This document shows positions 22,649-26,703 of a stretch of 64,000 nucleotides of DNA, one piece after another; position 1 is the first letter of the stretch, and each line of letters opens with the position of its first letter. The notes under the pieces are model-generated. The model ran no database searches and was not told the origin of the DNA. It saw only the letters and a list, made by a program, of their open reading frames with translations. A program made the translations under genes and the position numbers. The stretch spans positions 186,001-250,000 of the forward strand of contig NZ_FMWG01000003.1 in assembly GCF_900102795.1 (NCBI RefSeq), in the 5' to 3' direction. This DNA comes from Epibacterium ulvae. Its GTDB lineage: Bacteria; Pseudomonadota; Alphaproteobacteria; Rhodobacterales; Rhodobacteraceae.

Positions 22649-23683
22649 TCAGTTAAACATTGCGTCTAAATCAACTGTCGATCGGTTTCCAATATCCTGT
22701 TTATGGTTTGCCAAGAAATGATCCGCTCGTTTGCGGCCTGCCTCTTTTAAGCGATTTAAGATCTGCGGCACCGGCACCATCTTGGTTGTGACCGAGAGTT
22801 TTCTCATCATCTCATCGTCAGCAACCATGTGAACGAAAACCTCCTGCATGTCGCCCCTTTTAAGCGTCCCGTTTTCGAGCAAACGTTGTACAAAGGAAAT
22901 CGCTCGCAACTCTCTCAACAAAGACGAGTTGAAGCTGATCTCGTTCACTCGATTTTGGATTTCCTGTGGGGACTTAGGTATTTTATCTCTTTCAAGAGGG
23001 TTGATATTCACCACAAGAACATCTGACGGGAACTGCTTGTTAAACAAAGGAAATAGCGCAGGATTTCCAGAATACCCCCCATCCCAATACGCTTCAACAC
23101 GCTGCGTTTTAGGATCCTCAATTTCCACGGCTTGAAACAGGCTGGGAAGGCACGCAGACGCCAAAATTGCCTGAGTAGATATTTCATGCTTCTTAAAAAT
23201 ACGCACTTTTCCCGTTCGGACAGATGTTGCACAGACAAAAAGTGCTGGTCCATCATCACAACAGACCTCTTCAAAATTGAACTTTTCAACAACTGCTTGC
23301 AGTGGGTTCTTATAAAAAGGTCCTAAATGATAAGGTGATGAAAGTTGGCTCATCATATCCATAGGTGTATAGGGAACAAGACGTTCAAATAGGTCAATCA
23401 AGGCCGCGGCATCAACGCCCGCAAACCATTGATGCATACGTTGATCGCGTAGTGCCCCCATCCGCTGCCAAAGCTGATCAAGACAGTGTTTTGCCCCATC
23501 ACGTCCACCATGTGCGATACCTGCTTTGAATGCCGCGCCATTCAAAGCACCTGCCGATGTCCCAGTAATTGCGGCAATTTCCAGATCTTCTTCCTCAAGG
23601 AAACGATCCAACACTCCCCAGGTGAAAGCGCCGTGCGCTCCACCACCCTGCAATGCAAGATTAATACGTTTTTTTACGTTCAT
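22649..23683 (-). CDS. patatin-like phospholipase
   Basis: 344-aa serine lipase with a Ser-Asp dyad. The oxyanion GGGAHGAF (residues 13-20), nucleophile elbow GTSAG (Ser43) and the DGGYSGNP Asp are intact. No signal peptide, so it is cytoplasmic or membrane-peripheral. AAGGG precedes the ATG. It sits 79 nt downstream of bdhA on the same strand. Patatin-like lipases of this type accompany bdhA in many alphaproteobacteria, which suggests a role with 3-hydroxybutyrate or lipid storage, but the substrate cannot be read from sequence. Confidence 0.92.
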   Translation of the reverse strand: MNVKKRINLALQGGGAHGAFTWGVLDRFLEEEDLEIAAITGTSAGALNGAAFKAGIAHGGRDGAKHCLDQLWQRMGALRDQRMHQWFAGVDAAALIDLFERLVPYTPMDMMSQLSSPYHLGPFYKNPLQAVVEKFNFEEVCCDDGPALFVCATSVRTGKVRIFKKHEISTQAILASACLPSLFQAVEIEDPKTQRVEAYWDGGYSGNPALFPLFNKQFPSDVLVVNINPLERDKIPKSPQEIQNRVNEISFNSSLLRELRAISFVQRLLENGTLKRGDMQEVFVHMVADDEMMRKLSVTTKMVPVPQILNRLKEAGRKRADHFLANHKQDIGNRSTVDLDAMFN

Positions 23684-23762: not shown

Positions 23763-24536
23763 TTAGAGTGCTGTCCAACCACCATCAACGCTCAGCGTTG
23801 TACCTGTAATCTGCGCAGCAGCATCTGATGCAAGAAACACGGCTGTTCCTCCCAATTGCTCAACTGTGGCAAATTCTCTGGAAGGTTGGCGTTCCAACAT
23901 GACTGTTTTTATAACTTCTTCCCGACCCATGTTGTATTTCTCCATTGTATCAGGGATCTGTGCCTCAACCAGTGGCGTAAGCACATAACCTGGGCAAATC
24001 GCATTACAGGTGATTGGCTCTTGTGCTGTTTCAAGGGCAACAGCCTTGGTCATCCCAACAACCCCGTGCTTTGCAGCAACATAGGCCGATTTAAAGGGTG
24101 AGGCAGTCAGTCCATGAGCCGATGCGATATTGATAATCCTGCCCCAGCCAGCCGCCCGCATTACAGGCAATGCAGCGGCTGTCGTGTGAAAAGCTGACGA
24201 CATATTGATCGCAATAATTGCATCCCACTTTTCTGCCGGGAATTCATCAATTGGTGCAACATGTTGAATGCCTGCATTGTTGATAAGGATATCGCAGGCC
24301 CCCGACTTTTCAATCAAAGCGCGACATTCGTCGCCTTTTGACATGTCTGCTTTGATATAACGCGCATCAACCGAGAACTCGTTTGCAATCTCAGCAGCAA
24401 TTTTGTGATCTTCGTCGCGGTCGGTAAACGAGTTCAACACAACATGTGCGCCCGCTTTGGCAAGTTCCCGCGCAACACCCAGACCAATGCCTGAATTTGA
24501 GCCTGTAATTACCGCTGTTTTACCTTTGACCGTCAT
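23763..24536 (-). CDS. bdhA: 3-hydroxybutyrate dehydrogenase (SDR)
   Basis: 257 aa from the ATG at 24536 (MTVKGKTAV), spaced well from AGGGG. Two upstream ATGs exist but lie too close to the ribosome site or lack one. A short-chain dehydrogenase: TGSNSGIGLGVA (NAD binding), NNAGIQH, IINIASAHG, SAYVAAKHG (catalytic Tyr/Lys) and CPGYVLTPLVEAQI, which is characteristic of D-3-hydroxybutyrate dehydrogenases. It oxidises 3-hydroxybutyrate to acetoacetate in polyhydroxybutyrate use. The patatin-like gene follows. Confidence 0.93.
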   Translation of the reverse strand: MTVKGKTAVITGSNSGIGLGVARELAKAGAHVVLNSFTDRDEDHKIAAEIANEFSVDARYIKADMSKGDECRALIEKSGACDILINNAGIQHVAPIDEFPAEKWDAIIAINMSSAFHTTAAALPVMRAAGWGRIINIASAHGLTASPFKSAYVAAKHGVVGMTKAVALETAQEPITCNAICPGYVLTPLVEAQIPDTMEKYNMGREEVIKTVMLERQPSREFATVEQLGGTAVFLASDAAAQITGTTLSVDGGWTAL

Positions 24537-24670
24537 ATTGCTCATTCCCCTAGGCTGCATTTGATGCTAGTGCAGGTTTCCGCGTGCTGCACCTGCAAAG
24601 CAAACGATTTTGCGTGACAGCATGCAAGCCCAATGAGAGATCAGATTAGATTTTCTGAAAGCGCTTCAAC

Positions 24671-24746
24671 AAAAAAAACGCCCGCACGAAGCGGGCGTTG
24701 AGTTATTGAGGCAGGTTTCATACAGGCAAGAAACCTATCGAGCAGT
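24671..24746 (-). ncRNA. candidate small RNA, about 76 nt
   Basis: Predicted from its signals alone. On the minus strand, TTGGAC (24776-24781) and TATAAA (24753-24758) lie exactly 17 nt apart, and a start is expected near A24746. The RNA would form an internal hairpin with arms UAGGUUUC/GAAACCUG (24737 to 24715), a short single-stranded CU/AA-rich linker, then a 9-bp GC-rich stem and eight U residues. No ORF with a start and ribosome site fits inside. This is the layout of an Hfq-type trans-acting sRNA, and hfq is in this window. I do not recognise the family. Confidence 0.62.
24677..24699 (-). terminator. intrinsic terminator of the candidate sRNA
   Basis: A 9-bp perfect stem (AACGCCCGC/GCGGGCGTT) with a 5-nt loop, followed on the minus strand by a run of eight T in all. 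No protein gene on the minus strand ends here: the nearest upstream minus gene is more than 2 kb away. Confidence 0.88.
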
Positions 24747-24752
24747 GATCTC

Positions 24753-24781
24753 TTTATAAGCAATTTCCCCGCTTGGTCCAA
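24753..24781 (-). promoter_or_regulatory. sigma70-type promoter for the candidate sRNA
   Basis: -35 TTGGAC (24776-24781) and -10 TATAAA (24753-24758), 17-nt spacer, minus strand. Each box is close to the consensus (TTGACA, TATAAT). It points away from the binding-protein gene and toward the terminator 54 nt further on. Confidence 0.65.
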
Positions 24782-24861
24782 GCTAAAAGTTTGATTTGTC
24801 CTGCACGCCCAGATAGCCTTGGAAGCTAAGAAAATAAGGGCAGTATGGGATTGTATCCAAA

Positions 24862-26703
24862 GTGACATCAAATTTTTTCCTCCGCAACACCGTCTTTGCC
24901 GTCGGAATCGCCTTGGCTTTAGCTCCAAAATTTGTCTTGGCAGAATCAGCTGGAACGGGTGCAGTCCACGGAATTTCAATGTACGGCACCCCAGCTCTGG
25001 CTGCTGATTTTAACGCATTGCCCTACGCGAACGCTGATGCGCCGAAGGGGGGTAAAGTTGTCTTTGGCAACACCGGTGGCTTTGACACCCTCAATCCATT
25101 CGCACAAAAGGGCAGCGCACCTTGGCAAATGCGGTTTCTGATGGCTGAGAGCCTTATGGGGCGCAGCCAGGATGAACCTTTCTCTCTGTATGGATTACTC
25201 GCTGAAACCATAGAGGTGCCCGAAGATCGATCCTGGGTCGAATTTACCCTTCGTGCAGAAGCACGGTTCTCAGATGGAAGCCCCGTGACGGTTGAGGATG
25301 TCATTTGGTCGTTTGAGACCCTAGGCACCGAAGGTCATGCGCGTTATCGGAATTTCTGGCAAAACGGCATCGAGAAAATAGAACAAACAGGTGATCGAAG
25401 CGTCCGTCTCACATTTGCAGTTGATAACCGTGAATACGCGCTGATTGCGGGACTACGGCCAATTTTGAAGAAATCACAATGGGACGGAAAAGTCTTTGCG
25501 GATTCAGGTTTGAGCGAAGCTCCGATTACAAGCGCTGCATACGTGATTTCCGATTTCGAACCGGGCCGCTTTGTCAAATTAAAACGTAATCCAGATTACT
25601 GGGGCAACGATCTCCCCTTTAGACGTGGAACGCAAAACTTTGATGAAATGCGCATTGATTTATACGGTGATATCAATGTGATGTTTGAAGGCTTTAAGGC
25701 AGGCGCTCTTAGCACCTATCGAGAATTCAATGCTAACACATGGGAAACGGGCTACGATTTCCCACGTTATCTAGATGGTGAAGTTGTGAAATCAGAGATT
25801 CCACATGGTCGCCCTTCCGGCATGACGGGGTTTGCTCTCAACACACGCCGCGAAACACTGTCGGACTGGCGGGTGCGCGAGGCATTGCTGTTGGCTTTTA
25901 ACTTCGAATTTATCAACGAAACCATCACAGGCGGACGTCAAGATAGGATTTCGTCCTATTTCTCAAACTCTGAATTAGGCATGCAAGCTGGCGCAGCTGA
26001 CGGACTGGTTGCTGAGCTGCTCACGCCTTTTCGATCGCACCTCGTACCCGGCGTTATCGAAGGGTATGAACTGCCAGTAAGCGACGGAACAGAGCGCAAC
26101 AGGAAAAACCTCAGGAAAGCGACTAAACTGCTAACGGACGCAGGGTGGAGTGTTCAGGATGGTGTCCTCCAAAATAACAAAGGCGACACATTTGAATTAA
26201 AAGTCCTTTTACGCCAAGGCGATAACGAAATGCAGTCTGTCATGGACATATACGCGCAGGCCCTTGACCGTTTAGGTATTAGCCTTATTCAGGAAGTCGT
26301 TGATAACGCACAATATGTTGAGCGAGAAAGCCTGTATGATTTTGATATGGTTTACATGCGTCGGGATCTTTCCTTAAGCCCCGGAAATGAACAAAGGCTT
26401 TACTGGGGTAGCCAAGCGGCTGATCAGACTGGCGGTAGAAATCTTATGGGCATTCAGAGCAAAGCCGCAGATGCAATGATAGAAACCATGCTAAATGCAC
26501 GCTCTACCGAAGAATTTAATGCAGCAACACGTGCCTTAGATCGGATTCTGACTGCCGGGCGTTATGTATTGCCAATCTGGCAATATGATGTGGCCCGCAT
26601 TGCCCATGACAAAGACCTAACGTATCCCGATTACCTTCCGCTTTATGGAGACCGAGCGACATATTTCATGCCGCATGTGTGGTGGTCGAAAACAGCAGAA
26701 TAA
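24862..26703 (+). CDS. periplasmic oligopeptide-binding protein (SBP_bac_5, YejA-like)
   Basis: 613 aa, start GTG at 24862 as the frame has no ATG before the signal peptide, which probably ends at VLA-ES (about residue 27). It is the periplasmic binding subunit of an oligopeptide-type ABC importer. Features: the YANADAPKGGKVVFGNTGGFDTLNPF start typical of YejA relatives, EFTLRAEARFSDGSPVTVEDV, and a C-terminal PIWQYDVARIAHDK. No permease or ATPase genes follow: the next gene on the strand is 0.9 kb on. So it is an orphan or serves an importer elsewhere. Confidence 0.9.
   Translation: MTSNFFLRNTVFAVGIALALAPKFVLAESAGTGAVHGISMYGTPALAADFNALPYANADAPKGGKVVFGNTGGFDTLNPFAQKGSAPWQMRFLMAESLMGRSQDEPFSLYGLLAETIEVPEDRSWVEFTLRAEARFSDGSPVTVEDVIWSFETLGTEGHARYRNFWQNGIEKIEQTGDRSVRLTFAVDNREYALIAGLRPILKKSQWDGKVFADSGLSEAPITSAAYVISDFEPGRFVKLKRNPDYWGNDLPFRRGTQNFDEMRIDLYGDINVMFEGFKAGALSTYREFNANTWETGYDFPRYLDGEVVKSEIPHGRPSGMTGFALNTRRETLSDWRVREALLLAFNFEFINETITGGRQDRISSYFSNSELGMQAGAADGLVAELLTPFRSHLVPGVIEGYELPVSDGTERNRKNLRKATKLLTDAGWSVQDGVLQNNKGDTFELKVLLRQGDNEMQSVMDIYAQALDRLGISLIQEVVDNAQYVERESLYDFDMVYMRRDLSLSPGNEQRLYWGSQAADQTGGRNLMGIQSKAADAMIETMLNARSTEEFNAATRALDRILTAGRYVLPIWQYDVARIAHDKDLTYPDYLPLYGDRATYFMPHVWWSKTAE

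Follow-up and report, generated by a model that had tools for sequence, protein, structure and literature searches.

A family-wide small RNA gene of Rhodobacteraceae with a predicted antisense site in the leader of the dcw cluster

The small RNA gene and its features

The present work deals with a small RNA (sRNA) gene of Epibacterium ulvae (Rhodobacteraceae), located within a stretch of 64,000 nucleotides (nt) of contig NZ_FMWG01000003.1 (assembly GCF_900102795.1, positions 186,001 to 250,000), which is hereafter called the window and to which all coordinates refer unless stated otherwise. The gene is placed on the minus strand, in the gap between a bdhA-like gene and a gene for a solute-binding protein, which spans some 301-325 nt, according to which start codon is assumed. 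An initial annotation, made from the sequence letters, had proposed in this gene-free gap an sRNA locus with the elements TTGGAC and TATAAA spaced by 17 nt, a 9-bp terminator stem followed by eight T residues and a hairpin with an exposed loop. All these features were borne out, and the loop was found to be part of the segment antisense to the leader of the dcw cluster, in which the septum and wall synthesis genes are gathered. The complementarity between the sRNA and this leader is fixed across the family, and we consider it probable that the sRNA is a trans-acting regulator common to Rhodobacteraceae, which pairs with the dcw leader and with UpsM, the short RNA arising when transcription halts in that leader. 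The features of the gene are as follows.

24671..24746, minus strand: sRNA, 76 nt, 5' end placed by promoter spacing and conservation
24776..24781, minus strand: -35 element TTGGAC; T-35, T-34 and G-33 retained at 60, 57 and 58 of 60 aligned loci
24753..24758, minus strand: -10 element TATAAA; T-12, A-11, T-10 and A-9 retained at 58, 58, 57 and 54 of 60 aligned loci
24712..24737, minus strand: 5' hairpin, sRNA nt 10-35, with the 10-nt loop UUGCCUGUAU, unpaired in the model
24712..24727, minus strand: GCCUGUAUGAAACCUG, complement of the dcw leader site, from 13-mer conservation in leaders and UpsM cofolding
24677..24699, minus strand: intrinsic terminator stem-loop, 9 pairs (7 of them G-C), followed by the T run
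24671..24678, minus strand: run of eight T, from the sequence

The 76-nt RNA, with a linker between its 5' hairpin and the terminator, was predicted to fold into two hairpins with -26.4 kcal/mol (z = -5.0), and none of 200 shuffled sequences was as low. The promoter pattern taken alone occurred at chance frequency (44 matches with up to three mismatches against 41.4 expected, the one of the sRNA being exact), so that the promoter call is carried by conservation. It should be added that the sigma-70 scan did not have this promoter in its output, because the scan requires the final T. Judged by its sequence features, the locus is, far beyond chance, a free-standing RNA gene equipped with a promoter and an intrinsic terminator of its own.

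Conservation and distribution

The initial annotation had named conservation in close relatives, including that of promoter, hairpins and loop, as a test of its proposal, together with an Rfam covariance search; conservation came out in its favour. BLASTN detected the sRNA in 60 of 101 genomes, namely in 60 of 61 from its own family (self included) and in none of 40 from outside the family. The 20-nt core was present, with up to two mismatches, in 99 of 100 family genera sampled, the sole miss being a genome of 74% completeness (G050). A covariance model matched every one of the 121 genomes sampled from the order; they all belonged to the same family, and their best scores came to 84-108 bits (107 bits for the sRNA of the window); second matches within the family numbered nine, at 27-32 bits. 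Class-wide, 13 of 190 genomes were matched: three family genomes strongly and 10 of the 187 others at 26-30 bits, which are considered background since these scores equal those of the second matches within the family. Named Cereibacter genomes were among the carriers.

The promoter bases listed above were kept over the 60 aligned loci, and the first 40 nt of the sRNA were nearly invariant (58 of 60 RNAs aligned). Among 51 distinct sequences, 97.1% of cells were paired over both helices. Changes on both sides were found at six of the nine pairs of the terminator stem, which held all 38 double-change cells as compared with 11.1 in shuffles. Six of the eight pairs of hairpin 1 never varied, and covariation is therefore uninformative about this hairpin.

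With Rfam 15, no family reached its threshold in the window; the best sub-threshold scores in a 321-nt stretch were those of Leu_leader (26.8 bits of 50 needed), Hrs13 (24.9 of 52) and suhB (20.1 of 41). The last of these, suhB/MmgR (RF00519), is likewise an alphaproteobacterial sRNA, 77 nt long, with a hairpin and a terminator. Kinship with it, and control of polyhydroxybutyrate through bdhA, were rejected, as the score is far below the gathering score and the match is largely to the terminator.

The sequence of the sRNA was not found in the open-licence literature. The Paracoccus copies lie on replicons of 1.5-2.2 Mb, including pPAN3 of P. pantotrophus and pFER4 of Paracoccus ferrooxidans; on the latter, the sRNA is situated between the same two kinds of genes and is unannotated in the record. 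In Paracoccus denitrificans, “Intergenic 134” has been reported as an 84-nt transcript confirmed by reverse transcription PCR, conserved in Rhodobacteraceae and sharing its context with a putative sRNA of R. sphaeroides (PMC5107571). Compared by its description, it is probably the present sRNA, already recorded as a transcript of unknown function, since its numbering suggests the second chromosome and the Paracoccus copies occupy replicons of the above size; the description differs in that Actinobacteria matches are also given and that the target predicted there is Pden_5071 (PMC5107571). The word “unannotated” in the initial annotation thus holds for Rfam and for the Paracoccus record, but probably not for the P. 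denitrificans sRNA list.

A complementary site in the dcw leader

The first clue to a partner was an exact 20-nt antisense match outside the sRNA locus, before motB, in one genome (G049). Whole-genome scanning of 100 genomes for this antisense 20-mer (up to two mismatches) returned eight off-locus matches, six of them before mraZ, and none with the reversed control. MraZ was detected in 96 of the 100 genomes and 93 dcw leaders were examined, leaving out G034, whose contig begins there, and G038 and G045, with weak or unlisted matches. Two of the 93 leaders were incomplete, and for G032, in which no start was found, the entire locus of 3,180 nt was searched.

Judged by its best match in each of these 93 leaders, GCAGGTTTCATACAGGC had no mismatch in 25, one in 33, two in 11, three in 7 and more in 17, while shuffled patterns reached two or fewer mismatches in 2 of 18,600 cases. 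The 13-mer GTTTCATACAGGC was present with up to two mismatches in 83 of 91 leaders, as compared with about 0.4% for shuffled 13-mers; four of the other eight (G044, G047, G107 and G111) retain it with up to two edits. Across the 16 complementary positions, conservation in the 83 leaders amounted to 78-100%, and in the flanks mostly to 30-65%, with a few downstream columns at 69-80%. These leaders were selected on the 13-mer, so that the outer CAG alone, conserved at 78-90%, is independent of this selection.

Duplex predictions point in the same direction: the mean for sRNA and leader was -43.3 kcal/mol versus -26.1 for 2,730 shuffled pairs, whereas 182 other leader regions used as controls averaged -27.8 kcal/mol and none of them attained the observed median. 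The best duplex overlapped the leader site in 82 of 90 cases. Openness of the seed averaged 0.68 against 0.42 for the leader as a whole, and was the higher of the two in 83 of 83. The sRNA is encoded by a free-standing gene and exposes a conserved unpaired seed with a complementary target elsewhere in the genome, both of which characterise trans-acting sRNAs. What we propose here as new is the partner, i.e. the dcw leader and UpsM, inferred from this complementarity; no paper naming the dcw leader as a target of the present sRNA was found in the open-licence literature, in which the StsR work discussed below was covered via citing papers.

The pair in R. sphaeroides and its relation to StsR

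In R. sphaeroides (genome taken as that of strain 2.4.1, its UpsM coordinates agreeing with those published), the sRNA is found at 1443996-1444071 on the minus strand and the leader site at 694689-694705. RSs numbers scale with position, which would place this copy near 1370; the name RSs1386 was absent from the literature searched and is not assigned to it. The leader site ends 15 nt 5' of the published RNase E cut at 694,720, which yields the 130-nt fragment of UpsM (PMC6238624), and corresponds to UpsM nt 46-62 if the 206-nt UpsM begins at about 694644. In the cofold, sRNA nt 19-36 were paired with UpsM nt 46-63, one position being mismatched. About 6 nt past the leader site, the R. sphaeroides cut falls within UUUCAUCC|AA, and many other leaders (uncounted) read CTTTCATCGAA there.

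UpsM is already the partner of another sRNA, StsR, of 72 nt, with which RSs0827 has been equated (PMC8307010). According to papers citing the StsR work, pairing of StsR exposes an RNase E site within UpsM and influences read-through (PMC8625941, PMC8307010). The matches before mraZ prompted us to consider the present sRNA as the local StsR ortholog, in line with the same partner transcript and the similar length (76 versus 72 nt). However, the RSs0827 probe, whose sequence is printed in PMC3688512, is not contained in the present sRNA; it maps to another locus in four of eight genomes, and all four also carry the present sRNA. With separate loci, the orthology is refuted and we regard it as scarcely credible. 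StsR was absent from the Rfam listing of the window, a search that did not cover the locus of StsR itself.

Both sRNAs are family-wide, with own promoter and terminator and predicted UpsM pairing, yet they differ in sequence and in locus. Relatives of StsR were present in 83 of 100 family genomes (E <= 0.01), one such match being at G000:C29:194659-194712. Its complement was only modestly enriched in the leaders: 28 of 91 matched GGGACAGTGAAGG with up to three mismatches, as did about 10% of shuffled patterns. Cofolding placed StsR on UpsM nt 1-15 and 60-76; at the edge of the site, StsR and the present sRNA could therefore compete. UpsM itself derives from the mraZ leader and is no relative of the sRNA; it is the proposed partner, bearing the complementary site. 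The long dcw leader has been described as peculiar to Rhodobacteraceae (PMC5089854), and its taxonomic range is the same as that of the present sRNA.

Interpretation and rival explanations

Transcription would proceed from the predicted promoter of the sRNA and stop at its predicted intrinsic terminator. The exposed loop GCCUGUAU would begin pairing with AUACAGGC in the dcw leader and in UpsM, and the 3' side of the hairpin stem may then join in, giving a duplex of up to 16-17 bp, as complementarity and conservation suggest. In R. sphaeroides, the predicted duplex would be located immediately upstream of the RNase E cut. Most likely, the sRNA would alter the access of RNase E to UpsM and the dcw leader, or the decay of these RNAs, and so change how much UpsM and division-gene mRNA is available. 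Help from Hfq is likely. As stated in the initial annotation, hfq was located within the window, at about 40.5 kb on the minus strand (identified by sequence motif only); its presence in the window or the genome is no evidence for Hfq dependence of the sRNA.

In a stronger form of this mechanism, the whole division gene cluster of the family would be governed by a dedicated, family-wide sRNA that binds the nascent dcw leader ahead of the UpsM terminator and decides in trans between stop, giving UpsM, and read-through into mraZ and ftsZ. This would amount to an sRNA-operated attenuator for cell division, and StsR would provide another input, driven by stress, that overlaps the same stretch. We consider this form rather unlikely.

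Several observations weigh against pairing of the sRNA with the dcw leader. Four of 91 leaders (G025, G046, G116 and G140) lack a recognisable site, and two of these genomes, G025 and G140, retain the canonical sRNA core. In G046 and G116 the sRNA loop has diverged, and their leaders contain neither the usual site nor one matching the altered loop; the leader of G034, which is truncated by the contig end, was excluded from this check for compensating changes. Substitutions in the site showed no preference for keeping wobble pairs (11, versus 13 breaking transitions and 27 transversions). Moreover, the R. sphaeroides site carries one mismatch (GCAGGC), cleavage of UpsM is already ascribed to StsR, and conservation of the leader site might serve UpsM itself.

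The direction of regulation might also be the reverse, with UpsM as a very abundant sponge that titrates the sRNA through the same pairing, the functional targets of the latter being other mRNAs reached by short seeds. Further sites in single genomes, before motB in G049 and possibly in a leader of G149, are in line with this reading. On the other hand, no second conserved target emerged: the 5' part of the sRNA had 9 off-locus antisense matches against 10 for the reversed control, in a scan to which short seeds did not belong, and the 12 off-locus 13-mers listed are mostly positioned inside open frames or opposite to them, with no leader in common. We hold the sponge to be a minor but serious possibility. 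It is highly improbable, in turn, that the locus is a conserved DNA or terminator element without a functional RNA, for instance a stop to read-through toward bdhA or a divergent promoter element. The chance frequency of the promoter pattern and the stable synteny with the solute-binding gene would suit such an element, but the near-invariant transcribed core, the compensatory changes in the terminator, the presence in all 121 genomes and the matching site in the leader speak against it. Trans-acting pairing of the sRNA with UpsM and the dcw leader is the reading that we prefer.

Other complementary sites

Outside the sRNA and mraZ loci, the exact 13-mer had at least 12 matches, as compared with 3 for the reversed control. 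The exact 20-nt complement in G049 (G049:C17:169550-169569) immediately precedes the start of a gene that resembles motB by sequence, and is a possible lineage-specific second target that would link motility to the sRNA. An exact 13-mer in G149 (G149:C12, around 70863-70875) is placed some 30 nt upstream of what may be the start codon of a small gene. Among the 12 listed, three 13-mers are opposite the start of similar genes, presumably sarcosine-oxidase-like by their protein sequence, which probably reflects coding conservation.

Promoter, upstream box and sigma factor

A further conserved element adjoins the promoter:

24785..24793, minus strand: box CAAACTTTT, directly upstream of the -35 element; each position kept in 49-58 of 60 loci

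The box is missing from several distant family members and may bind a factor or belong to the divergent gene's promoter. For the -35 region, CAAACTTTTAGCTTG was considered as a palindromic operator covering the element and rejected, as its symmetry is broken in Cereibacter and others, while CAAACTTTT and CTTGG persist.

Induction by stress through RpoHI/RpoHII, with the sRNA acting in one pathway with StsR, was considered as well. Features of RpoH promoters have been given as C-37 before the TTG of the -35 element, with T-9 (RpoHI) or C-14 and T-13 (RpoHII) (PMC3441632). With the numbering shifted by one to align TTG, the sRNA promoter has C before TTG in 57 of 60 loci and T at the position aligned with -13, in agreement with RpoH control; however, the T-9 of RpoHI and the C-14 of RpoHII were not seen. 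TATAA without T-7 also fits alphaproteobacterial sigma-70, most promoters of which are reported to lack T-7 (PMC8407463). The predicted promoter suits alphaproteobacterial sigma-70, its RpoH features being mixed, and we consider RpoH-driven expression rather unlikely.

Neighbouring genes

The neighbours are those given in the initial annotation, i.e. a peptide-binding protein and bdhA, now specified by Pfam matches for both:

24862..26703, plus strand: family 5 solute-binding protein, divergent neighbour (SBP_bac_5, 3e-56)
23763..24560, minus strand: bdhA-like short-chain dehydrogenase, downstream neighbour (adh_short, 1.5e-53)
22649-23683, minus strand: patatin-like phospholipase gene, following the bdhA-like gene on the same strand

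In the 60 loci compared (about 3 kb each), the divergent solute-binding gene adjoined the sRNA in 59 and a relative of bdhA was present in 48. These loci gave stable synteny only, with no evidence of a functional tie between the sRNA and its neighbours.

Implications

In Rhodobacteraceae, which are abundant marine and soil bacteria, the dcw cluster has an unusually long leader that yields UpsM, and control of the cluster is only partly known, through StsR. A second RNA, found in each of the 121 genomes sampled from the order and matched by a nearly fixed antisense site, would constitute a testable control point of cell division in these organisms. Furthermore, the sRNA could readily be put forward as a new Rfam family whose target is predicted.
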